Source: an uncultured Alphaproteobacteria bacterium (GTDB taxonomy: Bacteria > Pseudomonadota > Alphaproteobacteria > Micropepsales > Micropepsaceae). From it: DNA of 50,320 nt. Shown one piece after another: positions 23,781-43,251 of this stretch (position 1 is the first letter of the stretch; each line of letters begins with the position of its first letter). The stretch is taken from NCBI GenBank assembly GCA_903857685.1, contig CAIOFO010000126.1, forward strand, positions 1 to 50,320. Reading direction: 5' to 3'. The notes below the pieces were generated by a model, which worked only from the letters and a program-made list of their open reading frames with translations, was not told where the DNA came from and made no database searches. The translations under genes were made by a program, and so were the position numbers.

Positions 23781-23960
23781 TCCAGCGCCTTTCCAGAAAA
23801 TCCGCGCGGACTTTGGCGCATTCCGGCGCTGCGGTCGAGATATTTGCAAGCCACAAGCCGGGCAATCTGGCTTCGCACGGAAAGGCTGCCTAATATTTAT
23901 GCGCAGGACTCCGGTGAGACCGGCACCATCGTAATGCAATTTGTTCAGGAGAATGTCCCC

Positions 23961-24767
23961 GTGTCCCTCGCCGAAAAGCGCGCCGCCTTCCGCGCCCTGC
24001 ACAACCAGGGCTGCTTTGTGATTCCCAATCCCTGGGACCTGGGCAGCGCGCGGCTGCTGCAGCATATGGGTTTTGCCGCCCTGGCCTCGACCAGTTCCGG
24101 TTTTGCCTGGACCACCGGCCGCCCCGATTACGCCGTGACGCGCGACGGCGTGCTGCAGCATCTGGAGTCATTATGCGCGGCGGTGGATCTGCCGGTGAAT
24201 GCAGATTTCGAATCGGGCTTCGCCACCGAACCCGCCGGCGTGGCGGCCAATGTCGCGCTCGCCATCCAGGCGGGGGTAGCGGGCCTGTCGATCGAGGACC
24301 GTGATATCGAGGCTCCGGCCCGGCTTTATGAAGCCGTGCTGGCGGTGGAGCGCATCGCCGCCGCCCGCGCCGCCATAGACCGGTCCGGCACCGGCGTCCT
24401 GCTGGTGGCCCGCACGGAGGGCCTGCTGCGCGATCCGAGTTCCGTCACCCCGGCAATCGACCGGCTGGTGGCCTTCGCGCAGGCGGGCGCCGATTGTCTC
24501 TTTGCGCCCGGCGTGTGGGAAAAGGCCGATATCGCCGCCATGGTCCGCGCCGTGGCGCCCAAGCCGCTGAATGTCCTGATCATGCGTCCGGGCCTGGGCG
24601 TCGCGGAACTGGCCGATCTGGGCGTGCGGCGCATCAGCATCGGCGGCGCCCTGGCGCGGGTCGCCTGGGGCGCCGTGCGGGCGGCGGCGCAGCAGATTCA
24701 GGCCGGCTCTTTCGACGGGCTGGCGCATGCCATGACGGGCCAGGAGCTGAACGGCATCTTCGCCTAG
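23961..24767 (+). CDS. PEP mutase/isocitrate lyase-family enzyme
   Basis: This 268-residue TIM-barrel protein has the superfamily blocks NPWDLGSARLL, LASTSSGFAWTTGRPD, LPVNADFESGF (metal-binding Asp/Glu) and GLSIEDRD. The isocitrate lyase KKCGH motif is absent. Family members cleave or form C-C and C-P bonds (oxaloacetate hydrolase, 2-methylisocitrate lyase, carboxy-PEP mutase), and the exact reaction is open. I prefer GTG 23961, which has AGGAG nine bases upstream and gives VSLAEKR; ATG 23934 adds nine residues but has no ribosome site. It is divergent from the XRE-cupin gene, its likely regulator. Its stop shares CTAG (24764-24767) with the stop of the convergent GNAT gene. Confidence 0.87.
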   Translation: MSLAEKRAAFRALHNQGCFVIPNPWDLGSARLLQHMGFAALASTSSGFAWTTGRPDYAVTRDGVLQHLESLCAAVDLPVNADFESGFATEPAGVAANVALAIQAGVAGLSIEDRDIEAPARLYEAVLAVERIAAARAAIDRSGTGVLLVARTEGLLRDPSSVTPAIDRLVAFAQAGADCLFAPGVWEKADIAAMVRAVAPKPLNVLIMRPGLGVAELADLGVRRISIGGALARVAWGAVRAAAQQIQAGSFDGLAHAMTGQELNGIFA

Positions 24768-25939
24768 AGCGGCTTTTCGTAGATGCGGTAGCGCTTGTAG
24801 GGCACGCCGCCCACCATCTCGATGACATGGCGCACGCGCGTGTTGCGCGCCAGGATCCAGGACAGTTCGCTGTCCACAACGCCGCGGGCGATATTGAAAT
24901 CCCGCACCGACTGGATGACCGACAGCGCCAGCGCCGCGCCGATGGGGGATGATTGCAGGGATTTGCGAACCCCCATCATGGGCATGCGCGCCGTGCGCGG
25001 CCGGCTCACCTTCATCCGCCACAGCAGCTTGGCCCAGTTGAAGGGCAGCAGCCGTCCGTTCATGTCGGCGATCGCCTCATTGAGATTGGGAAAGATCGCG
25101 GCAAAAGCGGCGGGCTTGCCCTGGTATTCGGCGATGGCGACATCGCCCGGCCGCAGCAGCAATTTCAAGATGCCCGACAGGTCGTCAATCTCGGCCCTGG
25201 TCATTTGGACGAAACCCCAATTGTCCGACCAGGCGTCGTTGATGATGTCCAGCAGCATGCTGACTTCGGAATCGAAGTTCTTCTTGTCCATGCGGATATT
25301 GCGCAGCGTGATGTCGCCGCGCCGCATCGACCGCTCCACCAGGCGCCTCAGAGTGTCGGTCGGCGCATCCGGTCCATAGCGATAGGCGATCAGGTCTTCC
25401 GCCGCCTGGTAGCCGTTCTCCACGATATGCCCGGCGAAGTAAGGCTGCGCATGGCCCATCATCACATAGGGCGGCGTGTCGAAGCCCTCGACCAGCAGGC
25501 CCGGCTGGTCCCAGAGCGAAAAGCTCACCGGGCCGATCACCCGCTTCATGCCCTGGCCGCGCAGCCAGCCTTCCGCCGCCTGCAGCAGCGCGGCAAATAT
25601 CTCGGCATCGTCCAGCGCCTCGATGAAGCCGAAATGCCCGGTGGCGTCGTGATAGCGCTCCAGGTGCAGCTGGTCGATCTGCGCCGTGATGCGTCCCACC
25701 GCCACGCCATCGCGGTAGGCCAGAAAAAACGCCGCCCGCGCATGCTGGAAATAGGGATTGTGCTTGGGCATGAAATGGAATTTCCGCTCGATCAGGAGCG
25801 GTGCGACCCATTGCGGATCGCCCGCATAAACCTTGAAGGGAAGGTGATGGAAGTCGTGCCATTGCCGGGCGGTCTCAACCGCGACGACCTCCACCGCTGA
25901 CGTGCTTTTGCCGGCATTCATGGCGGATGGCGAGGACAT
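24764..25939 (-). CDS. GNAT-superfamily N-acyltransferase-like protein
   Basis: The 391-residue cytoplasmic protein belongs to a large GNAT-type family recognised by DPQWVAPLL, KHNPYFQHARAAFFLAYRDG, VGRITAQID, GHFGFIEALDD and IGPVSFSLWDQPGLLVEGFDTPPYVMMGH. Members are unknown or are acyltransferases. Known bacterial ceramide synthases are GNAT-type N-acyltransferases, so an N-acyl transfer onto a long-chain amine is plausible beside the oxoamine synthase further along; this is inference. ATG 25939 has AGGAAAG upstream. The gene diverges from the SDR gene (99 bases apart), and its 3' end overlaps the PEP mutase-like stop within CTAG. Confidence 0.75.
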   Translation of the reverse strand: MSSPSAMNAGKSTSAVEVVAVETARQWHDFHHLPFKVYAGDPQWVAPLLIERKFHFMPKHNPYFQHARAAFFLAYRDGVAVGRITAQIDQLHLERYHDATGHFGFIEALDDAEIFAALLQAAEGWLRGQGMKRVIGPVSFSLWDQPGLLVEGFDTPPYVMMGHAQPYFAGHIVENGYQAAEDLIAYRYGPDAPTDTLRRLVERSMRRGDITLRNIRMDKKNFDSEVSMLLDIINDAWSDNWGFVQMTRAEIDDLSGILKLLLRPGDVAIAEYQGKPAAFAAIFPNLNEAIADMNGRLLPFNWAKLLWRMKVSRPRTARMPMMGVRKSLQSSPIGAALALSVIQSVRDFNIARGVVDSELSWILARNTRVRHVIEMVGGVPYKRYRIYEKPL

Positions 25940-26038
25940 GGGCTTTCCTGAATTTTCGGGACCATAGCGTTGGAAGTGCCGATTTGATAGTAAGGATCGG
26001 CCGCATTTTCGCGGGTCCGCCCTGAAAAAACGCATCCG

Positions 26039-26791
26039 ATGCCCGAGACGAAAATCCTGATTACCGGCGCATCCAGCGGCATCGGCGCGGCGCTGGCCCG
26101 CAGCTATGCCCGTCCCGGCGCGACGCTTGTTCTATGGGGCCGCGATGCGCCCCGGCTGGAGGCGGTCGCCGTGGAATGCCGCCGGCGCGGCGCCGCCGTG
26201 ATGGCCGACCCTTTCGATCTGCGTGACATGGCGGCAATGGCCCAGCGCCTGGCGAAATGCGATGCGGAAGGTGCCATTGACCTGGCGATATTCTGCGCCG
26301 GCCTGGGCGGCATCGTGCCGCCCGACCAGTTCGCCCAGGCGCCGCAGCTTGCCCAGGCCATGGCGGAGGTGAATTTCACCTCGCCGGTTGTCGGCGCCGG
26401 CATCATGTCGGGGGCGATGGCGGGGCGCGGCCGGGGGCAGATCGTGCTGGTGGGCTCCATCGCGGAATCCTTCCCGCTGCCCATGTCGCCCGTCTATGCC
26501 GGCAGCAAGGCCGGCCTGGCCATGTTCGCCGAGGCGCTGGCGGGCCGCATGACGCCGCATGGCGTCGCCGTCACCCTGGTCTCGCCCGGCTACATCGACA
26601 CGCCGATGAGCCAACAGCTGAACAAGCCCAGGCCCTTCCTGCTGTCGGCCGACCGCGCGGCCGAGATCATTAAGCGCAAGCTGGCGCGGCGGCCGCTGCG
26701 CATCGTCCTGCCCTGGCAGTTCATCTGGATTCGCGCTCTTGCGATGTTGCTGCCGCGCCCGCTGCTGCGGCGCATCCTGCGCAGCGCATGA
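26039..26791 (+). CDS. Short-chain dehydrogenase/reductase
   Basis: The 250 residues form a classical SDR: cofactor loop TGASSGIG (9-16), catalytic S140, Y153 and K157 (YAGSK), and PGYIDTPM after the active site. The C-terminal 40 residues are hydrophobic and basic (WQFIWIRALAMLLPRPLLRRIL), suggesting membrane contact as in lipid-acting SDRs such as 3-ketosphinganine reductases. The substrate cannot be read directly. The stop overlaps the next start by four bases (ATGA), so it is translated with a membrane protein and a GT39 enzyme in a three-gene operon. ATG 26039 is the first codon of the conserved strand. Confidence 0.88.
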   Translation: MPETKILITGASSGIGAALARSYARPGATLVLWGRDAPRLEAVAVECRRRGAAVMADPFDLRDMAAMAQRLAKCDAEGAIDLAIFCAGLGGIVPPDQFAQAPQLAQAMAEVNFTSPVVGAGIMSGAMAGRGRGQIVLVGSIAESFPLPMSPVYAGSKAGLAMFAEALAGRMTPHGVAVTLVSPGYIDTPMSQQLNKPRPFLLSADRAAEIIKRKLARRPLRIVLPWQFIWIRALAMLLPRPLLRRILRSA

Positions 26792-27747
26792 CCCATCCGC
26801 ATGACACCCCTCTCAACGCCGGCCCGTTCGCCGCCATGGCGGCAAGCCGCCGCGGCCGGCTGGCGCTGCAGATCCTGCGCTGGGCCGTTCCGCTCTTCCT
26901 GCTGGTGTTTCTCGGGCGCCGCCTGACAGAGCTGGGCTGGCGCGAAATCTGGACCACGCGTCCGGCAAACCCGGTCTTCTATGTCTTCCTGGTCCTGCAA
27001 TTCTTCCTGCAGCCGCTGGGCGATTATCTCATCTATCGCAATTTGTGGGGCAGGACATCCCTGCCGCTGTCCGTGCTGCTGCGCAAGCGCTTCCTCAACA
27101 GCGCCATGTTCGATTATTCGGGCGAACTGTATTTCTACTTCTGGGCGCAGCGCCGGCTGAAGCTGCCGCACAAGAGCCTGGTGCACGCCATCAAGGACAG
27201 CAATCTGCTGTCGGGCGGCGCGGGGCTGGCGATGGTGTGGCTGGTCCTTCTCGCTTTGCTGGCAGGCGGCGGATTTCATCTTCCCCAAATCGCCGCCGAC
27301 CATCGCTGGCTGGATGTGCTGGTCGGCACCGTGCCGCTCATTCTCTGCGCCGCCCTGCTGCTCGGCCACCGCAGGCTGACAATTCTCAGCCGCCGCCAGA
27401 TCGCGCAGACCTTCGCCATCCATATGTCGCGCAGCCTGCTGGTGCTGCTGGTCGAATTCGCCATGTGGGAAGTGTCCGGCGCCCTGCCCTCCGCCATCGC
27501 CTGCCTGCAATTTGTGGGTTTGCGGCTGATCGTGACGCGCCTGCCGCTGCTGCCCAACAAGGATCTGGTGTTCGTCGGCGCCGGCATTGCGGCGGCGGGG
27601 CTGGTCCATGTCGCCGTCACGCCGGTCGCCACCGTGCTGGTGATCCTGGCGGCGGCGGACCTGATCCTGGGCTGCGCGGTGATCGGGCTGCCCTGGGCGC
27701 TGGAGCATTTTGTCCTGCGCCGCAAGAATGAAGAAGCCGCGACGTGA
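26788..27747 (+). CDS. Polytopic membrane protein, flippase-like
   Basis: The 319 residues contain about eight hydrophobic helices, starting at residues 28-45. The pattern (helices separated by short basic loops, FDYSGELYFYFWAQRRL, and an AIHMSRSLLVLLVEFAMWEV segment) recalls the lysylphosphatidylglycerol-synthetase-type membrane fold and polysaccharide flippase-like proteins, but I cannot name a family with confidence. It sits between the SDR and the GT39 enzyme with overlaps on both sides (ATGA at 26788, GTGA at 27744). It therefore likely moves or anchors the lipid-linked intermediate the neighbours act on. This role is inferred from context. Confidence 0.65.
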   Translation: MTHPHDTPLNAGPFAAMAASRRGRLALQILRWAVPLFLLVFLGRRLTELGWREIWTTRPANPVFYVFLVLQFFLQPLGDYLIYRNLWGRTSLPLSVLLRKRFLNSAMFDYSGELYFYFWAQRRLKLPHKSLVHAIKDSNLLSGGAGLAMVWLVLLALLAGGGFHLPQIAADHRWLDVLVGTVPLILCAALLLGHRRLTILSRRQIAQTFAIHMSRSLLVLLVEFAMWEVSGALPSAIACLQFVGLRLIVTRLPLLPNKDLVFVGAGIAAAGLVHVAVTPVATVLVILAAADLILGCAVIGLPWALEHFVLRRKNEEAAT

Positions 27748-29432
27748 ATTTGCGGACGCGCTCGCCCCTGTTCTGGATCCTGGCCGCCGCCGCCGCGCTG
27801 CGGCTGGCCGGGCTGTTCTGGGGCCTGCCCGCCTCCGATGGCTGGGACGATGACGGCTTCGCGCCGCGCAATTTCCTCACCGCCCTGGCGCTCACCTACA
27901 AGCCCGGTTCCTATTTCACCTATCCGCCGCTGCACGCCTTCCTGCTGGCGATCCTCACCTTGCCGGGCTCCATCGCCGCTCTTCTGCATGTTTCTTCCTG
28001 GACGCAGGCCGGCGTGGTGGGCGTATTCATCAGGCCGTCCACCATGACCTTCTTCGCCGTCACGGCGCGGCTGGTGAGCGCGGCGATGTCGCTGGGCATC
28101 ATCGCCTGCGCCGGACAAATGGCGCAATTGATCGCGGGCCGCAGAGCCGGCCTCTTTGCCGCCGCCGCCTGCGCCCTTGGCGTGACGCTGACCTATTACG
28201 GCCAGGTCACCAACCTCGATGTGCCGTATCTGTTCTGGAGCATGCTCTCGCTGATCTGCTGGATGCGCGCCGTCGCCCGGCACGAGCCGGCGCAATTTCG
28301 CCGGGCCATATTGTTCGCAGCCGCCGCCATCGCCACCAAGGACCAGGCCTATGCCATTTTCCTGCTGAGCGTGCCGCTCCTGCTTGCGCTGTGGTTCGCG
28401 ACAGACAATTGGCCGCGCGCGCATGCCCGGCAGGTATTTCTTTCGATCCTGCTCCCGGCGCTGGCCGCCCTGTTTCTTCTCCTGCTGCTGGACGGCGCCA
28501 TCACCAATCCAGCCGGCTTCGCCCGGCGGCTTGCCTTCCTGACAGGGCCGGCCAGCCGGGACTATGCCAATTACGCGCACGACAAGAGCGGCCGCCTGGC
28601 GCTGCTGGGGGACGCGGCCAGCCATTTCACGCTGGGGCTCGCGGCCGCGGCGCTCGCCGCTTTCGGCGCGGCGCTTTGCCTGCCGGGCCTGCGGAAAAAG
28701 GACCCCGCATGGCTGGCGGGATTGTTGCCGCTGCTGGCGATTTTTTCCTTCACGCTCTGCTTCAATTTTGTCGCGCTGCGCAGCGATGCGCGCTTCCTGC
28801 TGCCGCAAGCCGTCCTGGCCACGGTCTATATCGGCATCGCCGCCGATAAACTGGCTTTCGCGCCCTTGCCCTGGCCGGGCCGCACCGCGCTGGCGGCCAT
28901 CGCCCTGTTTGCCCTGTACCAGTGCCTGGGCGTCGATGCGGCCTTGCTGTCCGATCCGCGTTACGACGCCGAGCGCTGGATGGCGGCCAATATCCGTCCC
29001 GGCGACAGCGTGGAAACCTACGGCCAGAATGCCTACCTGCCGCGCCTGCCGCAAAGCGCGATCGTCTCACGCATCGGTCCGGGCGCGCTCGCCATCCGCA
29101 ATCCCCTGCCGGGTGTGCGCGAACTCAAACAGCCCTTCGGCGCCGTCGAAAACCGCCGTCCCCGCTTTATTGTCGTCAGCGCCTGGTGGGTTCAGCGCTA
29201 TCTTGCTCTGGAACCGGTGGCCGGCGGCCGGACTCCGTCCCCGATCCTGCAACGGCAATATGCCGATGCCGATGCGCGCGGCTATTTCGCCGCTCTCTAT
29301 GGCGGCGGGCTGCGCTACCGCCCGGTGCATCAATCCACCCCCGCTGGCGGGCTGCTTCCCGCCATCCATATCCATGAGAGCCTGGACGAAAATATCGATA
29401 TTTTCGAACGCGTGGCGGATGGCCCGCCCTAG
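27744..29432 (+). CDS. GT39/ArnT-like polyprenyl-linked glycosyltransferase
   Basis: This 562-residue membrane protein has an N-terminal helix, then an acidic loop (ASDGWDDDGFAPRN), many helices to about residue 395 and a soluble C-terminal domain (about 400-562). This is the arrangement of GT39/PMT-type and ArnT-type enzymes, which use a polyprenyl-phosphate sugar as donor on the outer face of the inner membrane; the acidic residues in the first loop are the expected catalytic ones. The acceptor could be a lipid, glycan or protein. It starts at GTG 27744, overlapping the previous stop, and ends sharing CTAG with the convergent GT4 gene. It is the last gene of the SDR operon. Confidence 0.8.
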   Translation: MNLRTRSPLFWILAAAAALRLAGLFWGLPASDGWDDDGFAPRNFLTALALTYKPGSYFTYPPLHAFLLAILTLPGSIAALLHVSSWTQAGVVGVFIRPSTMTFFAVTARLVSAAMSLGIIACAGQMAQLIAGRRAGLFAAAACALGVTLTYYGQVTNLDVPYLFWSMLSLICWMRAVARHEPAQFRRAILFAAAAIATKDQAYAIFLLSVPLLLALWFATDNWPRAHARQVFLSILLPALAALFLLLLLDGAITNPAGFARRLAFLTGPASRDYANYAHDKSGRLALLGDAASHFTLGLAAAALAAFGAALCLPGLRKKDPAWLAGLLPLLAIFSFTLCFNFVALRSDARFLLPQAVLATVYIGIAADKLAFAPLPWPGRTALAAIALFALYQCLGVDAALLSDPRYDAERWMAANIRPGDSVETYGQNAYLPRLPQSAIVSRIGPGALAIRNPLPGVRELKQPFGAVENRRPRFIVVSAWWVQRYLALEPVAGGRTPSPILQRQYADADARGYFAALYGGGLRYRPVHQSTPAGGLLPAIHIHESLDENIDIFERVADGPP

Positions 29433-30730
29433 CGGACCTGCGGCCTGCCGGCGGCGCGGAACAATTCGTCCTCGATGATCCGCGCATGCGTCCTGGCATT
29501 GAAATCCCGTTCAATCCGCGCCCGCCCCGCCGCGCCGTCGCGCCGGCGAAGGCCGGCATCGAAGAAATAATTCCGGCAGGCTTCCGCCAGCGCCGCGATG
29601 TCGGGCGGCGATCCCGGCGCCAGCCTGCCGCTGACGCCGTCCTCGATCATCTCGCCCATGCCGCCGACATCGAACGCCACGACGGGCTTCGCCATCGCCA
29701 TGGCTTCCAGCACCGCCAGGGGAAGCGGATCCTGGTAGATGCTGGGCACCACCGCAACATCGAAATCCGCCACATAGGCGATGACGGCGGCGCGACAGCC
29801 GATGAAATGCACCTCTCCGGCCAGGCCAAGCTGGCGCACAAGCGCCCGGCATTCCTCCAGATGATCGGTTTTCATGTCCTGCGGCGTGTCGCCGATCACG
29901 GCGAAGTGGCAGCGCGCCCAGTCCCCGGGCTCCAGCCTGTCCCGCAGCAGGCGGGCGGCGCGGATCATCTCCACATAACCCTTGCGCGGCAGGATGCGGC
30001 CATGGCTGCCGAAAATGACGGCGCTGGCGTCCAGGCCAAGCTCCCGGCGCAGCGCCGCTTGCGTTCTGCCCGCATCGAACTCGTCAATGTCAATCGCATC
30101 ATGGATCAGGCGGATCTTTTCCGGGCACCGGCCAAACTGGCGCGCGGTGGGCCGCGAGACGCAGATGATGGCTTTCACGTTCTTTCCCGCCGCCAGATTT
30201 GCGTGCAATCCGCGCGCCGCGCCGCCGACGGATGTATAAAGAACATGCCAAAGTGTCGGCGTGCCGGTCAGGACCGCCAGGATGCCGCCGGCGATATTGG
30301 CCATGGTGCCGTTGCAGAATATGGCGTCATAGCGTTCCCGCCGCACCCTGCGCGACAGGCGGATGATGGCGGCGGCGGCCAGAAATACATTGCCGCAGGC
30401 CCGCAGGATCTTCAGCGGCCAGGGCGCGGCCAGGTCGCCGCGTTCGACCGGCCGCGACAGCGGCGCGAAAATATGTTCGATCAGCCCCGGCTCGAACAAC
30501 AATTCATCGGCGGCCCTGTTCTCCAGCAAGCGTTCGCTGACAATGCCTGCACGCGGCACCAGCACGGCGCGGTGAACGCGCGCCGGATCGAGAAACTTCA
30601 CAATGTCCAGCAGCGTCTTGCCAGGGCCGCCATTGCGCGACGTGTCGTTGATGAAAAGCACGCGAAGCCGCCCGGACTTGTCATCCGGCTTTTGCAATTT
30701 CGGAACGGGACTGTCGGAAGGCAGGAGCAT
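29429..30730 (-). CDS. GT4-family glycosyltransferase
   Basis: The 433-residue cytoplasmic protein has the GT-B fold of family 4: an N-terminal Rossmann half (LRVLFINDTSRNGGPGKTLLDIVKFL), a hinge, and a C-terminal donor half with GSHGRILPRKGYVEMIRAA and VAVVPSIYQDPLPLAVLEAMAMAKPVVAFDVGG, which contains the expected E-x7-E motif for nucleotide-sugar binding. The sugar is unknown. It runs opposite to the GT39 gene, sharing CTAG at the stops, and diverges from the GT22 gene with a gap of about 66 bases, so these two probably share a promoter region. Confidence 0.9.
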   Translation of the reverse strand: MLLPSDSPVPKLQKPDDKSGRLRVLFINDTSRNGGPGKTLLDIVKFLDPARVHRAVLVPRAGIVSERLLENRAADELLFEPGLIEHIFAPLSRPVERGDLAAPWPLKILRACGNVFLAAAAIIRLSRRVRRERYDAIFCNGTMANIAGGILAVLTGTPTLWHVLYTSVGGAARGLHANLAAGKNVKAIICVSRPTARQFGRCPEKIRLIHDAIDIDEFDAGRTQAALRRELGLDASAVIFGSHGRILPRKGYVEMIRAARLLRDRLEPGDWARCHFAVIGDTPQDMKTDHLEECRALVRQLGLAGEVHFIGCRAAVIAYVADFDVAVVPSIYQDPLPLAVLEAMAMAKPVVAFDVGGMGEMIEDGVSGRLAPGSPPDIAALAEACRNYFFDAGLRRRDGAAGRARIERDFNARTHARIIEDELFRAAGRPQVR

Positions 30731-30796
30731 CGCCGGATCGACTATAAAAGCCGTGCATGATAGCGTCTACATGCCGCGCGGGTGGATTGCCGTTTC

Positions 30797-34637: not shown

Positions 34638-34640
34638 CGC

Positions 34641-35948: not shown

Positions 35949-36218
35949 GGCCCCCGGGCCGGATCGTCGTCCCGTCAAGCATAACGTTAATTGCGGCCCC
36001 TACAACCTTGCCGGCACAGGAAAACTCATCCCGGACACGCCTAACCGCTTGGCCTGATTTGGGATATATTGACCCTCCGGCCCCCCTGTTTGCGCCATTT
36101 TGCGCCCGCAGCGCCTATACAGGAGGAATCCTGCGTCATAATATCCCCGCCCCTGGCAACAAAGCGACATGAAGGGTGATTCGGCTTAGGCCGGATATCC
36201 GTGAATTAGAGTGGGGAA
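35949..36218. promoter_or_regulatory. Divergent promoter region between oxoamine synthase and LptB-like genes
   Basis: These 270 bases separate two divergent operons and must contain both promoters. They are richer in A/T than the flanks around 35985-36070 (ACGTTAATTG, GGGATATATTGACC). I see no clear consensus site or long palindrome. Confidence 0.5.
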
Positions 36219-36935
36219 ATGCTAGCGGCGCAGCATCTGGTGAAGTCGTTCGCCGGCCGCCGGGTCATCGAAAACGTGACCTTGACCCTGGGCCGGGGCG
36301 AAATCGTCGCCCTTCTGGGCCCCAATGGCGCCGGCAAGACCACCACCTTTCAGATCCTGACGGGCATGGCGACGCCGGACGGCGGCTCGATCCTGCTCGA
36401 CGGCACCGATATCACCCATATGCCGTTCTATGACCGCGCCCGCTTCGGCATCAGCTACCTGCCCCAGGCCTCCTTTGTGCCGCGCAGCCTTTCGGTCGAG
36501 GACAATATCCTGCTCGTTCTCGAAGCCCGCATCCCCATGCGCGGCGCGCGCCTGGCACGGCTTGCCGAGCTGCTTGCCGAATCGCGCCTTGAAGCCGTGC
36601 GCAAGACGCCCGTCGGCGAACTGTCCGGCGGCCAGCGCCGGCGCTGCGAGATCGCCATCACGCTGGCCTGCGAGCCCAGCTTCGCGATGCTGGACGAGCC
36701 CTTTGCCGGCGTCGATCCCCGCAACACCGAGGAAATCACCACCCTGATCCGCCATCTTGCCGACCGGGAAATCGGCGTCCTGATCACCGACCACAAGGCG
36801 CGCGAATTGCTGGCCATCGCGGACCGCGCCTATGTCATCGAAAGCGGCAACATCCTGGCGCATGGCGTGGTGGACGACATCGTCACGCATCCCGATGTCC
36901 GCCGCGTCTATCTTGGAGAGGCGTTCCGGCTTTGA
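36219..36935 (+). CDS. LptB-like ABC transporter ATPase
   Basis: The 238 residues make a complete ABC ATPase: Walker A GPNGAGKT (34-41), Q-loop with the LptB-style [18 protein letters not shown], signature LSGGQ (135-139), Walker B FAMLDEP with E160, and H-loop ITDHKAREL. The Q-loop region and the C-terminal GEAFRL are typical of LptB, which powers lipopolysaccharide extraction from the inner membrane. The two following genes are LptF/LptG-like permeases, and LptB is normally not encoded beside LptF/G, so this looks like a self-contained second Lpt-type exporter. Start ATG 36219 has GTGGGG upstream. It overlaps the next gene by one base. Confidence 0.88.
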
Positions 36936-38245
36936 TGGAAGCTTCCGCGCAAACGCCATCGGCAAGGTCCGCAACGGCATTCCGCTTCCGGTCGTATCTC
37001 GCCGGCTTTGTCAAAGGCGGCTTTGCCTGGCGTTTCTTCCAGGACATGGCGATCTTCACCGCCGCCATCATCATTCTCATCGAAGCCATATTCCTGGCGG
37101 AACATTTCACCTGGGTGTTCCGCGACGCGGTCCGGCACGATGCCGACCTGCTGGACATCTCGCTGGTGCTGCTTTGCACCGGCACCGGGATCTTCGACCT
37201 GGCGCTGGCGACCGCCGTCCTGATCGCGGCCTATCTGACTTTGCTGCGCCTTCGCGAAAATCGCGAATTTCTCGCTTTGTTCGCCTCGGGCCTCGGCCCC
37301 TGGCAGCTGGGCGCGCTGGTCCTGATCGTGAGCATCATCGCCCAGCTCACGGGCATCGCGGGCGGCGGCATCGTGGACCCCCTCTCCCGCTACGCCCAGC
37401 GTTCCATCCTGTTCGGCACGGAACTGCAGTCCCTGAAAAAAGGCCTCGCCAGGGGCGAATTCTACAACTTCCCCGATTACGTCGTGTATGCCACCGATCA
37501 TCCCGCCACGGCGAAAGTGCCGGGCGTGGATGTCATAGACGCCAGCGGCGCGCCGCCGGTCATCAATCGCACGCTTTTCATCTATCAGCAGATCGCGCCG
37601 CACACATCGCGCGTCATTACCGCAGCGCAGGCCTCGCTGCAGGGCCCGGACCGCAGCGGCCAAATCATACTGGACCTCAATGATTTCTCGTCGCACACAT
37701 TTGCCGATGCCCATCCGCTGGTCGGCCTCAGCCCGGCGGAAACCCGCGGCAACAATGCGGCCGTGCTGGATGCGCTGCGGGAAGTGCCGCAGGTCACGAT
37801 GCATGTGCGCGATATGAGCCGGCTGATGATGGTGAACCAGCTTCTGCCCTTCGGCACGCGCGGCAGCGATCCCGCCGAACAGACCGTGTTTGAACAACTG
37901 GCCAAGAAGGCAAGTCCGGCGCCGGATGCGCGCGCGGCGCAGATGCGCCTGCTGGCCGAGCGTTTCGGACGCAGCCTGCTGTCTTTCCTGGCGCCCCTGC
38001 TTGCCCTGGCGGCGGTTTCTCTGACCACGCCGCGCTCCAACTGGTTCGCGCTGCCGCTGGTCTGCCTGGCGCTGATGTCGGTCAATCTGGGCTGCGAATG
38101 GCTCATCACGCTGGTGTCCCCGCTCGGCGTCGCGGCCGCCTTGCTGCCGCCGCTGCTGCTCTGCCTGCTGGTGGCGGGACTATCGGGCTGGATCGCGGTC
38201 CGCCGCCAGAGCGACCTGGTCCGCCCGCAGCTGGCGCGCGCATGA
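36935..38245 (+). CDS. LptF/LptG-family permease (first)
   Basis: This 436-residue protein has three membrane helices near the N-terminus (about 35-60, 80-105, 125-150), a large extracytoplasmic domain (about 150-340) and three C-terminal helices (about 345-425). That is the YjgP/YjgQ plan of LptF and LptG. The first segment contains FVKGGFAWRFFQDMAIFTAAIIIL, with the basic LptF-type N-terminus, and VLLCTGTGIFDLALATAVLIAAYLTLLRLRENRE matches the coupling-helix region with the conserved R-E pair. It would pair with the next permease and the LptB-like ATPase. ATG 36935 overlaps the ATPase stop (TGATG); TTG 36932 is a less likely start. Confidence 0.83.
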   Translation: MEASAQTPSARSATAFRFRSYLAGFVKGGFAWRFFQDMAIFTAAIIILIEAIFLAEHFTWVFRDAVRHDADLLDISLVLLCTGTGIFDLALATAVLIAAYLTLLRLRENREFLALFASGLGPWQLGALVLIVSIIAQLTGIAGGGIVDPLSRYAQRSILFGTELQSLKKGLARGEFYNFPDYVVYATDHPATAKVPGVDVIDASGAPPVINRTLFIYQQIAPHTSRVITAAQASLQGPDRSGQIILDLNDFSSHTFADAHPLVGLSPAETRGNNAAVLDALREVPQVTMHVRDMSRLMMVNQLLPFGTRGSDPAEQTVFEQLAKKASPAPDARAAQMRLLAERFGRSLLSFLAPLLALAAVSLTTPRSNWFALPLVCLALMSVNLGCEWLITLVSPLGVAAALLPPLLLCLLVAGLSGWIAVRRQSDLVRPQLARA

Positions 38246-39471
38246 CAGGCCTGCCCGAACGCGCCGCCCGCGCCGCCTATCCTGCGCCGCTCGGACGCCA
38301 TACCCGCTACATGCTGGCCAGCTATCTGCGCCACATCTTCATGGTGGCCGCGGCGCTGATGGTGATCGCGCTGACGATCGACCTTTGGCCCCAGATCCCG
38401 CTGCTCACGGCTGACCCGGCGCGCGGCGCGCTGGGCGTGGCCTGGAGCATTGCCCGTCTTGCGGGTTTGCGCGTCTGCGACCTGCTGCCGCCCTTCGTTC
38501 CGTTCGCCACCTTCCTGGGCGTGGTGTGGAGCGAGGTGGTGTTCACCGCGTCGCATGAACGGATGCTGATCTGGAACAGCGGCCGCTCGCCGCTGCAATG
38601 CCTGGCGCCCGCCGTCCTGGTCGGGGTGCTATTGGGCGCCGGACTGTTCGTGATGGACGCCTATCTGCGGCCGGCGGCGATTGCCGTGCAGATCCGGGAG
38701 CGTTTCGGGCGCGAAGGCCTGCGGCTGGACCGGACGCAAAGCGGCGGCAATCACTGGGTCGCCCTGCCCGACGGCTTGCTGCGGGCCGAGATCGAATACG
38801 GCCCGCCGCTGAAATTGCACAATGCCACGATCTACAGATTCAACGCCGACGGCCTTTTGCAGGAGGTCGACACGGCGGCGCTCGCAACGCCGCTGCCGTC
38901 GGGCGGCGAATGGCTGCTGCAGAACGGGCACTTCTGGAAAGCGCCGGCTGCCACCGACGAACCCCTGTCCCTCGGCGCCACGCGGGAAGAACCGGAAACC
39001 CTCTTCTCGCAGCGAAGCATTCCCCTGACGCTCAATGTCCTGTGGCTCGGCAATCTGGGCATGTCGCCGCAATATCTGACAATGGCGGAACTGCGTTCGC
39101 TGGCGCGGGCGCAAATCGTCTCCGCCGACGCGGCCGGGTTCGGCACGCGCCTGCAGGCGCTCTACAGCGAAGCCTTCCTGCCCGGCCTGATGGCGGTTCT
39201 CGCCGCCGCGCTGGCCATGCTGTTCATCCCCTATCGGGTGCGCCCTCTTCCCATGATCGGCGTGCTGATGGCCGGATATCTGGCGCATTTTTCCGTCACG
39301 GCGTTTCTGCTGATGGGGGAATTCGGCTATGTCTGGGCGCTTGCCGCGGGCTGGTTCGTGCCGCTGCTGGTTCTGCTCGGCAATGCCGGCGTTCTGTATG
39401 TGATTCAAAAACGCCGCGGGCTGGGCGCCAGCCTGCACATTACGCCCGCGCTGCCGGCCGCCCCGCTCTAA
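38242..39471 (+). CDS. LptF/LptG-family permease (second)
   Basis: The 409 residues repeat the LptF/G plan: N-terminal helices from about residue 25 (MLASYLRHIFMVAAALMVIALTIDL), the coupling region FLGVVWSEVVFTASHERMLIWNSGRSPLQCLAPAV, an extracytoplasmic domain (about 130-310) and three closing helices with FIPYRVRPLPMIGVLMAGYLAHF. Together with the previous gene (ATGA overlap) it gives the heterodimeric permease expected with an LptB ATPase. No LptC, LptA or LptD homologue is in the window, so the bridge is either shared with the main Lpt system or absent. The stop overlaps that of the convergent DUF4833 gene in CTAA. Confidence 0.83.
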   Translation: MTGLPERAARAAYPAPLGRHTRYMLASYLRHIFMVAAALMVIALTIDLWPQIPLLTADPARGALGVAWSIARLAGLRVCDLLPPFVPFATFLGVVWSEVVFTASHERMLIWNSGRSPLQCLAPAVLVGVLLGAGLFVMDAYLRPAAIAVQIRERFGREGLRLDRTQSGGNHWVALPDGLLRAEIEYGPPLKLHNATIYRFNADGLLQEVDTAALATPLPSGGEWLLQNGHFWKAPAATDEPLSLGATREEPETLFSQRSIPLTLNVLWLGNLGMSPQYLTMAELRSLARAQIVSADAAGFGTRLQALYSEAFLPGLMAVLAAALAMLFIPYRVRPLPMIGVLMAGYLAHFSVTAFLLMGEFGYVWALAAGWFVPLLVLLGNAGVLYVIQKRRGLGASLHITPALPAAPL

Positions 39472-40067
39472 TTCTGGCCGATATGCTCGTGCAGGACTTT
39501 GCCGCTGCTCTTGTCGATGGCGAAAATTTCCAGCGATGGAACAGTGGGCATGACGCCGCCCTCGATGACGTTCAGATAGACGTAAACCAGCCTGGCCGTG
39601 TGATTGCCGATCTGGATCAGCGCCTCGGGCCGCTTCTTGTCGTCCAGGTCCAGCGTCAGAACCCGTTCCGGCAAAGCCGCGACCTGGAAGGTGACCGGCT
39701 GGCCGCGGGCCGGCCGGTTGATCCGCACGCCATAGGCCATCATGCGTTCCACGAAATTCAGAGCCTTTTTCTGGCCATCGACATTGAACCAGCGCCAGAA
39801 GCCCTCCACCGGCGTATCGGAATCCACTTCGCCATGCGCGTCCCGCCGGACGGCATAGACCACCGTGTTCGCGTTGGGCGAGCGCTCGACATAGAACAGC
39901 ATGTCCGGATCGTCCGGCACCTTGAATTCCGGCCGGACGCGGGGAATTTCGTCAATCTCCGTCACCTGGCTAGAGAGCTGGCGCGCCGCCGCGCCGTCCA
40001 GGACCGCCAGCCCCAGCAGACAGCCAAATCCCAGGACGCGAATAATCAATTTCCAGCGCGCTTGCAC
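39468..40067 (-). CDS. Exported DUF4833-like protein
   Basis: This 199-residue protein has a signal peptide or anchor at residues 1-28 (KLIIRVLGFGCLLGLAVLDGAAA). It then has the DUF4833 pattern: MLFYVERSPNANTVVYAVRRD, PVEGFWRWFNVDGQKKALNFVERMMAYGVRI, LDLDDKKRPEALIQIGN and YVYLNVIEGG. The function is unknown; it should sit in the periplasm. GTG 40067 gives a clean signal peptide; the longer frame overlaps the upstream gene by 56 bases and starts with sequence of no signal character. It follows the hydroxylase on the same strand by four bases, so they are an operon. Confidence 0.75.
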   Translation of the reverse strand: MQARWKLIIRVLGFGCLLGLAVLDGAAARQLSSQVTEIDEIPRVRPEFKVPDDPDMLFYVERSPNANTVVYAVRRDAHGEVDSDTPVEGFWRWFNVDGQKKALNFVERMMAYGVRINRPARGQPVTFQVAALPERVLTLDLDDKKRPEALIQIGNHTARLVYVYLNVIEGGVMPTVPSLEIFAIDKSSGKVLHEHIGQN

Positions 40068-40071
40068 GGCG

Positions 40072-40833
40072 TCAGCCCATCCCGCCGGTGATCCTGGCGT
40101 TGGTGCGGATTTTCCGCACCGATTCATTCCGATGGGCCAGCGCCAGGAAAAAACGGTTCAGCAGGCTCAGATGCCAGGGCATTTTTCGCGCCACGTCCAG
40201 AAACAGCACGGCCCGCACCTCATCGGATTCATTGGCGGCCTCATGCAGGAAAGTGTCGTCGAACAGCACGGCGGCGCCGTCGGTCCAGTAATATTTGCTG
40301 CCCTTCTCGATCTCCTCGCGGTGCGCCCGGTCCTGGGCCTCGCAATTGATCCGGATCCAGCATTGCTTGCCGGCGTTGTTGCCGGGAATGACCACGCCCA
40401 GATGGTAGCGCACAAATCCCTTCCAGTAGCCCCAATGCGGCTTGATATGCTGGTGCGGCTCCAGGATGGAAAAGAACGCCGTATAGACGCCCGGAATCCG
40501 GCGCAGCAGCGCGGCGGTGCGCGGCGCCAGGGCGCAATTCTCATCGATGAATTCACCCGATTTGAACATGAAGGTCTTCCACGCGATGGCATGGATGCCG
40601 CTGGACGTCTCGCTGCTCAGCGTGTCGATATTGGGAATGATGCTTCTTTTTTCCAGCATCGCCAGGCACTCTTCGCGCACGGCCGGAAAATTTTCCTGCA
40701 AGATGGCCAGGGCCGGATATTCGCCCAGGAAATCCCGCTCGAATGCGGGCAGCTTGCGGAAGGAACCGCGCGCCTCGGCGCGAACGAATATCTCCGCCGC
40801 CGCATTCTTCATGTAGACGCTGAATTTTCCCAT
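40072..40833 (-). CDS. Aspartyl/asparaginyl beta-hydroxylase-family dioxygenase (LpxO-like)
   Basis: The 253-residue protein has the iron/2-oxoglutarate hydroxylase core of the AspH/LpxO family: KPHWGYWKGFVRYHLGVVIPGNN (first iron His and the Arg of the substrate or cofactor site), LFDDTFLHEAANES (second iron His) and EVRAVLFLDVARKMP (2-oxoglutarate Arg). LpxO hydroxylates the 2-position of lipid A acyl chains, and other members act on Asp residues of proteins. Beside a lipid synthesis/export gene set, hydroxylation of a fatty acyl chain (as found in many sphingolipids) is an attractive but unproven role. ATG 40833 has a GGATAGC leader. It is the first gene of a two-gene minus-strand operon. 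Confidence 0.86.
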   Translation of the reverse strand: MGKFSVYMKNAAAEIFVRAEARGSFRKLPAFERDFLGEYPALAILQENFPAVREECLAMLEKRSIIPNIDTLSSETSSGIHAIAWKTFMFKSGEFIDENCALAPRTAALLRRIPGVYTAFFSILEPHQHIKPHWGYWKGFVRYHLGVVIPGNNAGKQCWIRINCEAQDRAHREEIEKGSKYYWTDGAAVLFDDTFLHEAANESDEVRAVLFLDVARKMPWHLSLLNRFFLALAHRNESVRKIRTNARITGGMG

Positions 40834-40993
40834 GCTATCCAGCAGTCATCCTTGCGGTCCGATTTGAACAGAGTGCGCCCGGGGACCGGCACAATCGTTA
40901 GCAACGCCAGGGCAGCCCCTGGTTTGTTCTTAAATTAGGCACGCTGCCGATTCAAGCAGACGCAAAAAAGCGCGCCTCGGGCGGCCAGGAAAT

Positions 40994-41827
40994 TCAGACG
41001 CCGCCTTCACAGGCCGCCGCCGCAAGGGTGCCGGCCGCCTTGCGGCCGTCCCGCGCCAGAAGATGTATGCCGTCGACGGTCCGCCAATTCGTCCCGGCGA
41101 TCGGCAACCAGCAATAGGTGCTTTTCGGAAAGAGCGTCTCGTAAAGCGCCCGGCGGCCGCTCGCGAACGGCATGTTCCCGAGCGAGGCATCCACCGGCAT
41201 TTCGAAAAATGCGACCGGCACGCCTTCCTGCCGAAACTGGTCCACCAGGGCTTTTACGGGCAACAGCCGGCTGCGCGTCCCGGCGTCGGGCGCCTTGGCA
41301 AAGCCGTTCTGCTGCAGCTTCAGGATTTTCGGAAAGTTTGCGGGTGCAGCCTCGTCCGACGGGTTCAGCCGCCGAAGCGCCCAGACAATGATGTTCATGG
41401 GGCGAAAAGCCCGCCGCGTCAGCCACAGAGCGGCGCGCAACCTGCGCGGCACCGCGCCGGTTGCATTTTCGATATCCGACGGGTTCGCGCCGCTGTCCAG
41501 GAAATTGGCTTCGATCAGCACGCGGGCGGGCAAGGGATGTGTCGCCGCGACGACGGAAAGCCCGGTAAGCGCGCTACCGTCGGCTTGCGAGAGAACCCGC
41601 CAGCCCTGGGGCCAGGCATCGGGCGGGATGCGCGCCGACAGTGAACTGCCCACGATCACCGCAGGCGCCCGCGCCCCGCCATCGACATAGGATTCAAGCC
41701 TGATGGCATTTGCGGTGTACTGATCCGGGCTCGAATTCACGTTGGGCGCGGCAATCCGCAGCACAGCTTCGTATACCCCAAGCACGATCAGGGCGGTTAC
41801 AAAAATCCGGGGCAGCAAATTGGGCAT
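40994..41827 (-). CDS. SGNH-type protein partner of the MBOAT acyltransferase
   Basis: This 277-residue membrane-anchored protein has one N-terminal helix (about 5-25, LLPRIFVTALIVLGVYEAVLRI), then an extracytoplasmic domain beginning AVIVGSSLSARI (SGNH block I, with Ser as the likely nucleophile) and ending with TVDGIHLLARDG (Asp/His of block V). Proteins of the AlgX/AlgJ/DltD type in this position transfer the acyl group delivered by an MBOAT onto a polysaccharide or lipid. It overlaps the MBOAT gene by four bases (ATGA) and is its obligate-looking partner. The start is ATG 41827. No family name beyond SGNH-like is safe. Confidence 0.75.
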   Translation of the reverse strand: MPNLLPRIFVTALIVLGVYEAVLRIAAPNVNSSPDQYTANAIRLESYVDGGARAPAVIVGSSLSARIPPDAWPQGWRVLSQADGSALTGLSVVAATHPLPARVLIEANFLDSGANPSDIENATGAVPRRLRAALWLTRRAFRPMNIIVWALRRLNPSDEAAPANFPKILKLQQNGFAKAPDAGTRSRLLPVKALVDQFRQEGVPVAFFEMPVDASLGNMPFASGRRALYETLFPKSTYCWLPIAGTNWRTVDGIHLLARDGRKAAGTLAAAACEGGV

Positions 41828-43251
41828 CAGAACTGGAAATAGATGAAACTTTGTGGCGGGCCGGGATTGAGCGCGATGGCCGACAGCAGCAAGCCCAGCA
41901 CAACCGGTTTGGCCGCGCCGTCCAGCACCGCAACCGCACCGCGCGCTTGCGCGCGCCGGCGCATCAGATAATGGGCATGGTAGAGCGCCACTGGCAAAAC
42001 ATAAATTGCGACAATGAAGACGGTCGAACGGGCTGTGCGCAAGCCGGTGTTTGAATACAGCGCCACGGCAAATGCTGCCGCATCCGAGACATGCGGCAGC
42101 TTGAAGAGAAGCCAGCCTGCCGTCACCACCGCGAACACCAGGGCCATGCGCACCGCGCGTATCGCCCAGTGCCTGCTCGCATAGAACCGCGTGCCGCGCG
42201 TCGCGCGTTCGCCGACCAGCGCCGCGCCGTGCCAAAAGCCCCAAATGGCATAGCTCCATGCCGCGCCGTGCCACAGCCCGCCCAGCGTCATGACGGTCAT
42301 CAGGTTCAAGGTGGTGCGCGCGGTCCCCTTGCGATTTCCGCCGAGCGGGTAATAGAGATATTCCCGCAGCCAGGACGACAGCGAGATGTGCCAGCGCGTC
42401 CAGAATTCGGAAAACGTCTCGGCGATATAGGGGAAATTGAAATTGATCGGCAGCTGATACCCGAACAGGCGCGCCAGCCCGATGGCGATCAGCGAATAAC
42501 CCGCGAAGTCGGCGAATATCTGCGCCGAATAGCCGATCAGAAACACCACCAGGTTCAGGCTCGAATAGCCCTGGAAATAGGGATAGGCGATCCAGAAGGT
42601 TTGCTGGCTCAAATTGTCCGCGATTACCACTTTCAGGAAATAGCCGACAATGAGCGCGCTCGCCGCCTTGTCCCAGTCAATGTCGCCAAAGCGCTTGGCG
42701 CCGATCTGCGGATAGAATTGATGCGCCTTGACGATCGGGCCGGCGATAAGCTGCGGAAAGAACGATACATATAGCAGCGTGTTCTTCGCATGCTCGCCGA
42801 AGCCGCGCGCGCTCGACACGTCATCGCGCGCCGGGCCTGGCCGGAAGGTGTCGAGCAGCAGGCTGATGCCGTGAAATGTGTAAAACGAAATGCCGATGGG
42901 CAACGGCAGCAGCAGAAGTGTGTGGACGGGACCGCTCTGTGCGGAAAGCAGCGACGGGAAGGTTATGCCCAGAAGCCGGTTGTACTTGAAGAAGGCCAGA
43001 ACGCCGAGATTGATGGCAACGCCTGCCGCCGCCCAGGCGCGCGGATTGCGGCCCCGCACAACCTGCCGGCTGAAAACCACATCAACGGCCGCAACCGCGA
43101 GCAACAGCGCCAGGAGCCGCGGGTTGTCGAAGGCATAGAAAAACAGACTCGCCGTGATCAGCCAGCAACTCTGCCACCGGCCGGGCAGCAGGTAATAGAT
43201 CGCGAAAACTGCCGCGAGGAACGCGAAGAACGCACTGGACGTGAATAGCAT
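41827..43251 (-). CDS. MBOAT-family O-acyltransferase (AlgI-like)
   Basis: The 474-residue membrane protein has 10-12 helices. It carries the MBOAT landmarks SFYTFHGISLLLDTFR, FFPQLIAGPIVKAHQFYPQI, FADFAGYSLIAIGLARLFGYQLPINFNFPY, EFWTRWHISLSSWLREYLYYPLGGNRKG and the catalytic His segment GGLWHGAAWSYAIWGFWHG. AlgI-like MBOATs move an acetyl or other acyl group across the inner membrane for exopolysaccharide O-acylation. Here it is coupled to an SGNH-type transferase. The target may be the glycan made by the glycosyltransferases upstream. ATG 43251 begins a typical MLFTSSAFF N-terminus. The gene heads its operon; the promoter lies in 43252-43400. Confidence 0.92.
   Translation of the reverse strand: MLFTSSAFFAFLAAVFAIYYLLPGRWQSCWLITASLFFYAFDNPRLLALLLAVAAVDVVFSRQVVRGRNPRAWAAAGVAINLGVLAFFKYNRLLGITFPSLLSAQSGPVHTLLLLPLPIGISFYTFHGISLLLDTFRPGPARDDVSSARGFGEHAKNTLLYVSFFPQLIAGPIVKAHQFYPQIGAKRFGDIDWDKAASALIVGYFLKVVIADNLSQQTFWIAYPYFQGYSSLNLVVFLIGYSAQIFADFAGYSLIAIGLARLFGYQLPINFNFPYIAETFSEFWTRWHISLSSWLREYLYYPLGGNRKGTARTTLNLMTVMTLGGLWHGAAWSYAIWGFWHGAALVGERATRGTRFYASRHWAIRAVRMALVFAVVTAGWLLFKLPHVSDAAAFAVALYSNTGLRTARSTVFIVAIYVLPVALYHAHYLMRRRAQARGAVAVLDGAAKPVVLGLLLSAIALNPGPPQSFIYFQF

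Follow-up and report, generated by a model that had tools for sequence, protein, structure and literature searches.

Rhodobacterial sphingolipid synthesis is held to begin with serine palmitoyltransferase (SPT) accompanied by AcpR and AasR (PMC9386255). In Caulobacter crescentus, the region CC_1168–CC_1152 comprises aasR-cerR-acpR-spt, cerS (CC_1154), lptC2/F2/G2 and a potential flippase, CC_1166, and sphingolipid transport is presented there as proposed, not studied (PMC11324152). The bacterial ceramide synthase bCerS is cytoplasmic, and the account that places it there states that no bacterial sphingolipid flippase or transporter has been identified yet (PMC11087976). In Pseudomonas fluorescens, the oxoamine synthase SgaB has SPT activity, and homologues of its cluster are found mainly in Burkholderia (PMC12134224).

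Here we analyse a window of 50,320 nucleotides, the whole stretch of DNA studied, from a relative of Rhizomicrobium. Families were assigned by Pfam scans of 30 frames of the window and by NCBIfam models. We infer, with a probability of roughly three in four, that the gene block at 24764–40127 synthesizes a glycosylated lipid of ceramide type and exports it; the reactions, their substrates and directions, and the lipid itself are read from the genes. Eleven genes form the core of the block: a GNAT acyltransferase, an SDR, a membrane protein, a GT39-like and two GT4 glycosyltransferases, an oxoamine synthase, LptB, LptF and LptG paralogues and a DUF4833 protein. Across 13 other related loci, each of them is found in between 10 and 13. 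All eleven are co-located in 9 of the 13, including that of the named strain Rhizomicrobium electricum DSM 21034, and the remaining four loci are truncated by contig ends. This recurrence exceeds chance. In one paper of the literature searched that names both Rhizomicrobium and sphingolipids, the single mention of Rhizomicrobium is a protein accession.

The 13 loci fall into group A (eight) and group B (five), which differ in gene order and in the synthase. Mean identities to the window in groups A and B are 77% and 40% for the synthase, 73% and 52% for the GNAT, 62% and 58% for the SDR, and 67% and 62% for GT4c. These values and the separate branches suggest that the synthase was displaced between the groups, but the approximately unbiased (AU) test does not reject a single clade (p 0.082), and we therefore do not claim displacement. 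Related blocks in Stappia and in genome G057 retain the synthase, SDR, DUF4833 and LptF/G genes and carry a myo-inositol-1-phosphate synthase gene; the Stappia block additionally has genes fitting aminoethylphosphonate synthesis.

The GNAT gene (24764–26035, minus strand; probable true start within the frame) matches its Pfam family with 23.4 bits (cut-off 20.7) and has no match in the PDB. Among 289 alphaproteobacterial genomes, the GNAT family is present in 40, canonical SPT in 39 and both in 38 (Fisher p 6e-44, kinship ignored). The two genomes with the GNAT and no canonical SPT, G071 and that of the window, each encode a different oxoamine synthase within the GNAT locus. The window protein is 41–44% identical, over nearly its full length, to the GNAT beside canonical SPT in five of six SPT loci; in the sixth (G129) the stretch holds no GNAT, which is located further off and contains one in-frame stop. 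The values are 43–44% for G202 and G075, and the gene order of G202 (AMP-binding, epimerase, ACP, SPT) matches the aasR-cerR-acpR-spt order reported for Caulobacter (PMC11324152). By its sequence, the GNAT is thus a member of the SPT-linked bCerS/CerS family, with putative N-acylation of a sphingoid base as its reaction. Within the genus, it is present in only 33 of 69 genomes, a count that speaks against the proposed pathway.

The oxoamine synthase (34641–35948, minus strand; PF00155, 144 bits) is found in 13/13 relatives. It lies in a clade of 35 of the 54 rows of our tree (support 100/99), separated from its own-genome paralogue L002, and in a 63-row clade of a wider tree (support 99). The rows for E. 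coli bioF and kbl and the own-genome paralogues L002 and L004 lie across a branch with support 99. Judged from the trees, orthology with AONS, KBL or ALAS is not supported, and the phylogeny that the initial annotation had named as a check places the synthase in a separate, well supported clade, apart from biotin and ALAS enzymes. Joining it to canonical SPT is also rejected (AU test, lnL 95.4 lower, p 1.3e-121), indicating at the level of sequence that the window synthase and canonical SPT are not orthologous. Its scores are far under the cut-off of every NCBIfam SPT model (319 vs 640, 258 vs 500, and 220 vs 670 for the rhodobacterial model NF047603, whose cut-off is exceeded by just two of the eight alphaproteobacterial SPTs found). 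The clade includes Burkholderia rows with a nearby KS motif, which stand in for SgaB in the tree. Since a recount gave the KS motif in 25 of 55 named clade rows (against 1 of 14 named rows outside; many stretches are short), we describe the clade as often, rather than mostly, PKS-linked. None of the 30 window frames scanned contains a PKS domain of the KS type. Two observations speak against the proposed pathway: in Methylocapsa and one relative the synthase lies beside a GNAT and no exporter was seen, and two genomes of the window's genus, G030 and G008, have a close synthase (62–67% identity) with no GNAT match.

There is no match in the window's genome to canonical SPT, to the acyl-ACP synthetase AasR or, at E 1e-30, to the ceramide reductase CerR, and no match to AcpR in the window (E 1e-3) or in the loci of seven relatives. 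The proposed reductase is a classical SDR (26039–26791, plus strand) assigned by Pfam and NCBIfam and found with 57–64% identity in 10/13 relatives. The matches listed from NCBIfam and the PDB are to generic SDRs, with none specific to a ketosphinganine reductase. The tail of the protein, initially described as hydrophobic, is Arg-rich (best 19-residue hydropathy 1.53) and has no clear transmembrane helix; we propose that the enzyme is a cytoplasmic 3-ketosphinganine reductase.

Two genes of the block were absent from the initial annotation. One of them encodes a 319-residue membrane protein (26788–27747, plus strand). Pfam assigns no family to it, nor to the corresponding frame of locus L140, at E 0.01. 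Its AlphaFold model (pLDDT 76) has the flippase fold of MprF: with VIA-align, all six of the MprF entries listed align over 282–287 residues with Z 16.9–18.5, and the next, unrelated, row has 6.0. The best match is 6lvf_A (Z 18.5, rmsd 4.5, 286 residues); Foldseek alone returns nothing at E<=0.001. The predicted fold is thus shared with the N-terminal flippase domain of MprF. The solved MprF chains have 793–830 residues, and therefore the second half is missing here. On the modelled fold and the neighbourhood, the protein is a candidate sphingolipid flippase.

The block has five glycosyltransferase genes. A GT39/PMT_2-like membrane enzyme (27744–29432, plus strand; 11/13 relatives) scores 24.5 bits with Pfam, below the cut-off of 26.1, and a GT22 (Alg9-like) membrane enzyme of mannosyltransferase type (30782–32341, plus strand) scores 105 bits and is present in 6/8 group-A and 0/5 group-B loci. 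Enzymes of these GT-C families use polyprenyl-phosphate sugars as donors. The three GT4 enzymes, all assigned by Pfam and encoded on the minus strand, are GT4a (29429–30730), a variable member found in 3/5 group-B and 0/8 group-A loci, GT4b (32305–33477; 11/13 relatives) and GT4c (33474–34637; 12/13).

The LptB, LptF2 and LptG2 genes are consecutive in one operon (36219–39471, plus strand). LptB (36219–36935), an ABC ATPase, scores 289 bits with TIGR04406 (cut-off 240) and is found in 13/13 relatives. LptF2 (36932–38245; PF03739, 79.5 bits; 13/13) and LptG2 (38242–39471; PF03739, 98.7 bits; 12/13) are each predicted to span the membrane six times, a long loop separating segments three and four. 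They therefore share families and membrane layout with the lipopolysaccharide (LPS) exporter LptB2FG, whereas they fall far under the equivalog cut-offs for LPS-specific LptF (TIGR04407, 61.8 vs 230) and LptG (TIGR04408, 75.6 vs 240). They are paralogues of a stronger LptF/LptG pair of the same genome, at C48; the two TIGR models were scored on the locus pair only. LptF/G-like genes also lie near the GNAT in 25 of the 38 canonical SPT genomes, in line with the arrangement described for Caulobacter (PMC11324152). An LptF/G profile that included two wrong-frame seeds found no match in L125 and L135.

The other gene absent from the initial annotation encodes the DUF4833 protein (39468–40127, minus strand; Pfam 99 bits; 12/13 relatives). 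Hydropathy places one hydrophobic segment at its N-terminus, followed by a beta-rich domain; the predicted structure has pLDDT 83. Foldseek finds no match for the model, to LptC or to any other chain, at E<=0.001, and the best VIA-align hit is an unrelated chain (Z 3.7). DUF4833 is over its cut-off in only two of the 289 genomes, both with synthase–LptFG clusters, and has no mention in the literature searched. On fold and neighbourhood, we propose it as a periplasmic partner of the exporter.

Three flanking genes had been counted as part of the locus: an LpxO/OlsC-like Asp/Arg hydroxylase (40072–40833), an 'SGNH' protein (40994–41830) and an MBOAT protein (41827–43251). None recurs in the 13 loci at E 1e-10 (0/13; the sequence of some loci stops close to the edge of the cluster), and we do not include them in the block. 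Pfam also gives no family in support of the SGNH assignment, scanned within the frame 40994–42274. The other family assignments of the initial annotation stand, LptB by NCBIfam and the oxoamine synthase, SDR, GNAT, hydroxylase, GT4, GT22, LptF/LptG and MBOAT by Pfam, with GT39 below its cut-off. Its reading of the locus as making and exporting a glycosylated ceramide-like lipid is supported by inference, from the GNAT that tracks SPT and the LptF/G genes near the GNAT, with two amendments: the synthase is no orthologue of canonical SPT, and the flanking genes are not members.

In the pathway that we propose, the oxoamine synthase would join an amino acid, most likely serine, to an acyl thioester to give 3-ketosphinganine, the SDR would reduce the ketone in the cytoplasm, and the GNAT, as ceramide synthase, would N-acylate the base. 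GT4 enzymes would add the first sugars at the cytoplasmic face, the MprF-fold protein would flip the lipid, and the GT39-like and GT22 enzymes would extend the glycan in the periplasm from polyprenyl-phosphate sugars. LptB, LptF2 and LptG2, with the periplasmic DUF4833 protein, would then extract the lipid from the inner membrane and pass it on towards the outer membrane.

The identity of the amino acid bears on whether this lipid is a ceramide. The catalytic residues His138, Asp210, His213 and Lys244 (Sphingobacterium multivorum SPT numbering) are conserved in the synthase, as are Ser81, Ser185, Thr241 and Ser243. Asn52, which in the S. multivorum enzyme makes a water-mediated contact to the serine hydroxyl, is replaced by Tyr in the synthase and in 15/15 clade rows compared. 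This replacement and the scores under the SPT cut-offs would fit an enzyme that takes alanine, glycine or cysteate in an otherwise unchanged pathway; the product would therefore be no true ceramide, and instead a 1-deoxy-sphingolipid or a sulfonolipid-like amide. Glycine acetyltransferases (204 bits) and a cysteate fatty acyltransferase (158 bits) are indeed among the PDB relatives, but the top matches are SPTs (239 bits). Moreover, the Tyr is common to two Burkholderiaceae PKS-linked rows, and the described homologue SgaB uses serine (PMC12134224). Tyr also occupies this place in the canonical row L061 and two further rows outside the clade. The Pfam results for the block include no cysteate synthase-type gene. 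We therefore regard a substrate other than serine as improbable.

The excess of the KS motif in the synthase clade, together with a second synthase–GNAT pair in G194 that has a KS motif upstream, raises the question of whether the product of synthase, SDR and GNAT is a small metabolite of the N-acyl amino-ketone type, with the glycosyltransferases and LptBFG serving an unrelated polysaccharide or lipid next to them. Against this, no KS motif is present in L140, L125, L135, the Stappia locus L158 or the tested stretches of G030 and G057, and in both groups, A and B, the synthase remains linked to the glycosyltransferases, the exporter and DUF4833 despite the differing gene order and synthase. 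A separate metabolite is thus very unlikely. Least probable of all is that the locus decorates or exports LPS, with a second Lpt system and core-type glycosyltransferases, and that the synthase modifies lipid A acyl chains. LptB does exceed the cut-off for LPS-export LptB and an LpxO-like gene is adjacent, but that gene lies outside the conserved block, the stronger LptF/LptG pair and matches to the LptC family are located elsewhere in the genome, and the GNAT family tracks SPT.

Taking the glycosylated ceramide-type lipid as the product, we tentatively suggest a broader scheme, which is possible though short of probable. The block may represent a rewired ceramide pathway equipped with a full set of proteins for traffic across and out of the inner membrane. 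In it, SPT/AcpR/AasR would have given way to a PKS-linked type of synthase and CerR to a cytoplasmic SDR, and the old ceramide synthase would be retained. With an SDR in place of CerR, reduction may use a cytoplasmic cofactor ahead of flipping. The MprF-fold protein would be the flippase, and LptB/LptF2/LptG2, with DUF4833 at the LptC position, would be a dedicated glycosphingolipid exporter. Since the Stappia and G057 blocks keep the core with other head-group genes, the core would be a general export system tolerant of head groups. If the product is a ceramide, the locus is an exception to the SPT/AcpR/AasR rule (PMC9386255), and surveys keyed on canonical SPT would overlook such producers. 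In a compact and conserved arrangement, the block combines a ceramide synthase with a candidate flippase of the MprF fold and with its own LptB/F/G.

The locus resembles the Caulobacter region in bringing together an oxoamine synthase, a GNAT ceramide synthase, LptF/LptG paralogues and a candidate flippase (PMC11324152). It differs in that its synthase is from another clade, AasR and CerR were not found, a classical SDR is the proposed reductase, and LptB and DUF4833 are inside the block. Its candidate flippase is predicted to fold like MprF, and GT4, GT39-like and GT22 genes take the place of the phosphoglycerate head-group genes of Caulobacter. SgaAB of P. fluorescens MYb115, a PKS with an SPT-active oxoamine synthase (PMC12134224), is linked to the locus through the clade with the Burkholderia KS-motif rows, whereas the 30 window frames scanned contain no PKS domain, and the partners of the window synthase are a ceramide synthase, glycosyltransferases and an exporter. 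Ceramide glycosylation of GT4 type in an alphaproteobacterium has been described for Caulobacter Sgt1 and Sgt2 (CCNA_00793 and CCNA_00792; PMC6445935), which by locus numbers are distant from the synthase CCNA_01220, whereas the present block itself includes three genes of GT4 type and two of GT-C type. In summary, an alphaproteobacterial ceramide locus with LptFG paralogues is known from Caulobacter, and the swapped front end, the block's own LptB, the MprF-fold candidate flippase, DUF4833 and the GT-C enzymes are new.

Most of the gene families named in the initial annotation of this region are borne out by Pfam. The GT39-like glycosyltransferase has a Pfam match, although slightly below the cut-off; no Pfam family is found for the proposed 'SGNH' protein, a DUF4833 gene (39468–40127) can be added to the families named, and Pfam assigns no family to a 319-residue membrane protein (26788–27747). 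The second half of the forward-strand frame at 23253–24767, the 3' end of which abuts the GNAT gene, looks by eye like an isocitrate lyase/PEP mutase family member. The window, contig C126 of its genome, has a GC content of 63.7%, and that genome (G000) comprises 3.0 Mb in 160 contigs and is 100% complete. It very probably belongs to the genus Rhizomicrobium, a name taken from synthase identity, since the oxoamine synthase of Rhizomicrobium electricum DSM 21034 (locus L140) is 89–95% identical to those of three genomes of the same genus (L024, L025, and L027).

The block is conserved. Tblastn with the window proteins recovers it in 13 related loci, eight close to the window (group A: genomes G014, G015, G035, G011, G001, and G036; MAG contigs L084 and L145) and five farther away (group B: G020, G026, G007, G009, and R. 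electricum L140), all of them distinct, with 94% DNA identity between the closest pair (G001 and G036). The synthase, LptB, and LptF2 are present in all 13 loci; LptG2, DUF4833, and GT4c in 12; GT39 and GT4b in 11; and the GNAT, the SDR, and the 319-residue protein in 10. Nine loci carry the full eleven-gene set, and contig ends truncate those of G011, G001, G036, and L084. GT22 occurs only in group A (six of eight loci) and GT4a only in group B (three of five). Scored alone, the GNAT has matches at E ≤ 1e-80 in 33 of the 69 genomes from the window's genus.

In a survey of 289 genomes drawn from Alphaproteobacteria, the GNAT (E ≤ 1e-40) occurs in 40, canonical serine palmitoyltransferase (SPT; E ≤ 1e-95) in 39, and both in 38 (Fisher's p = 6e-44, kinship ignored). 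The two genomes with the GNAT and without canonical SPT, the window's own and G071, each encode a different oxoamine synthase at the locus of the GNAT, and the only genome with the reverse pattern, G107, is 82% complete. Within the DNA stretch around the GNAT, the synthase is visible in 19 of the 38 genomes, lying elsewhere or past the stretch in the remainder, and LptF/G-like genes are visible in 25 of the 38, indicating that a link between LptFG and ceramide loci is common in Alphaproteobacteria. In G202, the genes of the locus run in the order AMP-binding enzyme, NAD-epimerase, ACP, SPT, DAG-kinase type, LptF/G, Polysacc_synt, fatty-acid hydroxylase, and GNAT, interspersed with frames without a named family; this order fits that reported for Caulobacter, aasR-cerR-acpR-spt with cerS further on (PMC11324152). 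Judged by sequence and co-occurrence, the window GNAT is of the ceramide-synthase type. The proposal that the locus makes and exports a glycosylated ceramide-like lipid is supported in its core; it does not extend to LpxO, MBOAT, and 'SGNH', which tblastn detects in none of the 13 related loci.

The window synthase (34641–35948) scores under every NCBIfam SPT cut-off. In a 104-row quick tree and a 54-row careful tree it falls, with support of 99 and 100/99, respectively, in a clade that also contains synthases from Burkholderia, Methylobacterium, Streptomyces, Planctomycetes, and other taxa. Outside this clade lie canonical SPT, the S. multivorum SPT, BioF and Kbl of E. coli, and the paralogues from the window's genome. 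An AU test rejects a single clade of the window group and canonical SPT. By a simple motif count in the available DNA, a KS motif lies near 25 of 55 named clade rows versus 1 of 14 named rows outside. Compared with S. multivorum SPT, the window synthase keeps His138, Asp210, His213, Lys244, Ser81, Ser185, Thr241, Ser243, and Arg367. Asn52 is replaced by Tyr in the window synthase and in 15 of 15 clade rows compared. The roles of the S. multivorum residues, Arg367 excepted, follow PMC10196870. The PKS-linked oxoamine synthase SgaB of P. fluorescens is reported to have demonstrated SPT activity, and its homologues occur chiefly in Burkholderia (PMC12134224); SgaB is absent from both trees, where Burkholderia rows represent it.

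Pairs of a synthase and a more distant GNAT are also seen. At 8135–10668 of L230 (G194), a clade synthase directly overlaps a second GNAT (35% identical), with a KS motif upstream; canonical SPT is also encoded in G194, at a locus that has a GNAT of its own. In L125 (9896–12551; Methylocapsa acidiphila B2) and L135 (9905–12415), a Rhizomicrobium-type synthase is followed immediately by a GNAT (35–36%), and no LptFG or GT block is seen in the flanks examined.

An ACP together with an acyl-activating enzyme is reported to accompany rhodobacterial spt (PMC9386255). In a 50-genome set, AasR (E ≤ 1e-50) is found in 39 genomes, namely all 38 with the GNAT and canonical SPT (partial matches in G062 and G193) and G107; CerR (E ≤ 1e-30) is found in 34 of the 38 and in G107. 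At these thresholds neither is found in G000, G007, G009, G014, G015, G020, G026, G030, G035, G057, or G071. AcpR (E 1e-3) is present in five of six canonical loci, the query's own counted, and is not found in the window or in the loci of seven relatives. With AasR and CerR not found in the genome and AcpR not found in the window, the front end appears to have been swapped: the genome retains the ceramide synthase, alongside another type of oxoamine synthase and an SDR of the classical kind.

An AlphaFold model of the 319-residue protein, built on 10 sequences (pLDDT 76), matches six MprF entries with Z of 16.9–18.5 over 282–287 residues (next row, Z 6.0); Foldseek alone finds no match at E ≤ 0.001. 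The modelled fold makes the protein a candidate lipid flippase. The window LptB scores above the LPS-export cut-off, LptF2 and LptG2 score below theirs, and a stronger LptF/LptG pair is present on another contig of the genome (C48); therefore, the window set is a paralogue. DUF4833, which combines a hydrophobic segment at its N terminus with a beta-rich domain, is rare in the class, exceeding the cut-off in 2 of the 289 genomes (G000 and G057), and a third match (G052) is below the cut-off and contains stops. No structural match is found for the protein, nor a mention of its name in the literature searched; its neighbourhood suggests an exporter partner.

Related blocks in Stappia sediminis (L158, 5623–18074) and G057 (L047, 9997–18112) combine the synthase, DUF4833, SDR, LptF, LptG, and GT4 with a myo-inositol-1-phosphate synthase, called by Pfam in the former and by eye from the translation in the latter. 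Stappia additionally has a PEP mutase, a TPP enzyme, and class-V aminotransferases, and no GNAT is seen in either stretch. Their lipids are possibly inositol- or phosphonate-headed, with the same export core. G030, of the window's genus (L045, 7570–16581; L046, 6252–10143), has a synthase 62% identical to that of the window, an SDR, a myo-inositol-1-phosphate synthase, CTP_transf_1, and two CDP-alcohol phosphotransferases, with a PEP mutase nearby, and matches neither DUF4833 nor GNAT. These blocks fit a shared lipid core with exchangeable head groups. Another enzyme would be required for N-acylation in them.

Taken together, the gene content fits an already known type of locus, in which alphaproteobacteria pair ceramide synthesis with paralogues of LptFG, here with a new gene make-up. 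For Caulobacter, PMC11087976 proposes that acylation comes before reduction, on the ground that CerR is a periplasmic enzyme, and leaves the reductant of CerR open. The window SDR has no hydrophobic segment above the threshold applied, so ketone reduction here would, in contrast, be cytoplasmic and could come before N-acylation.
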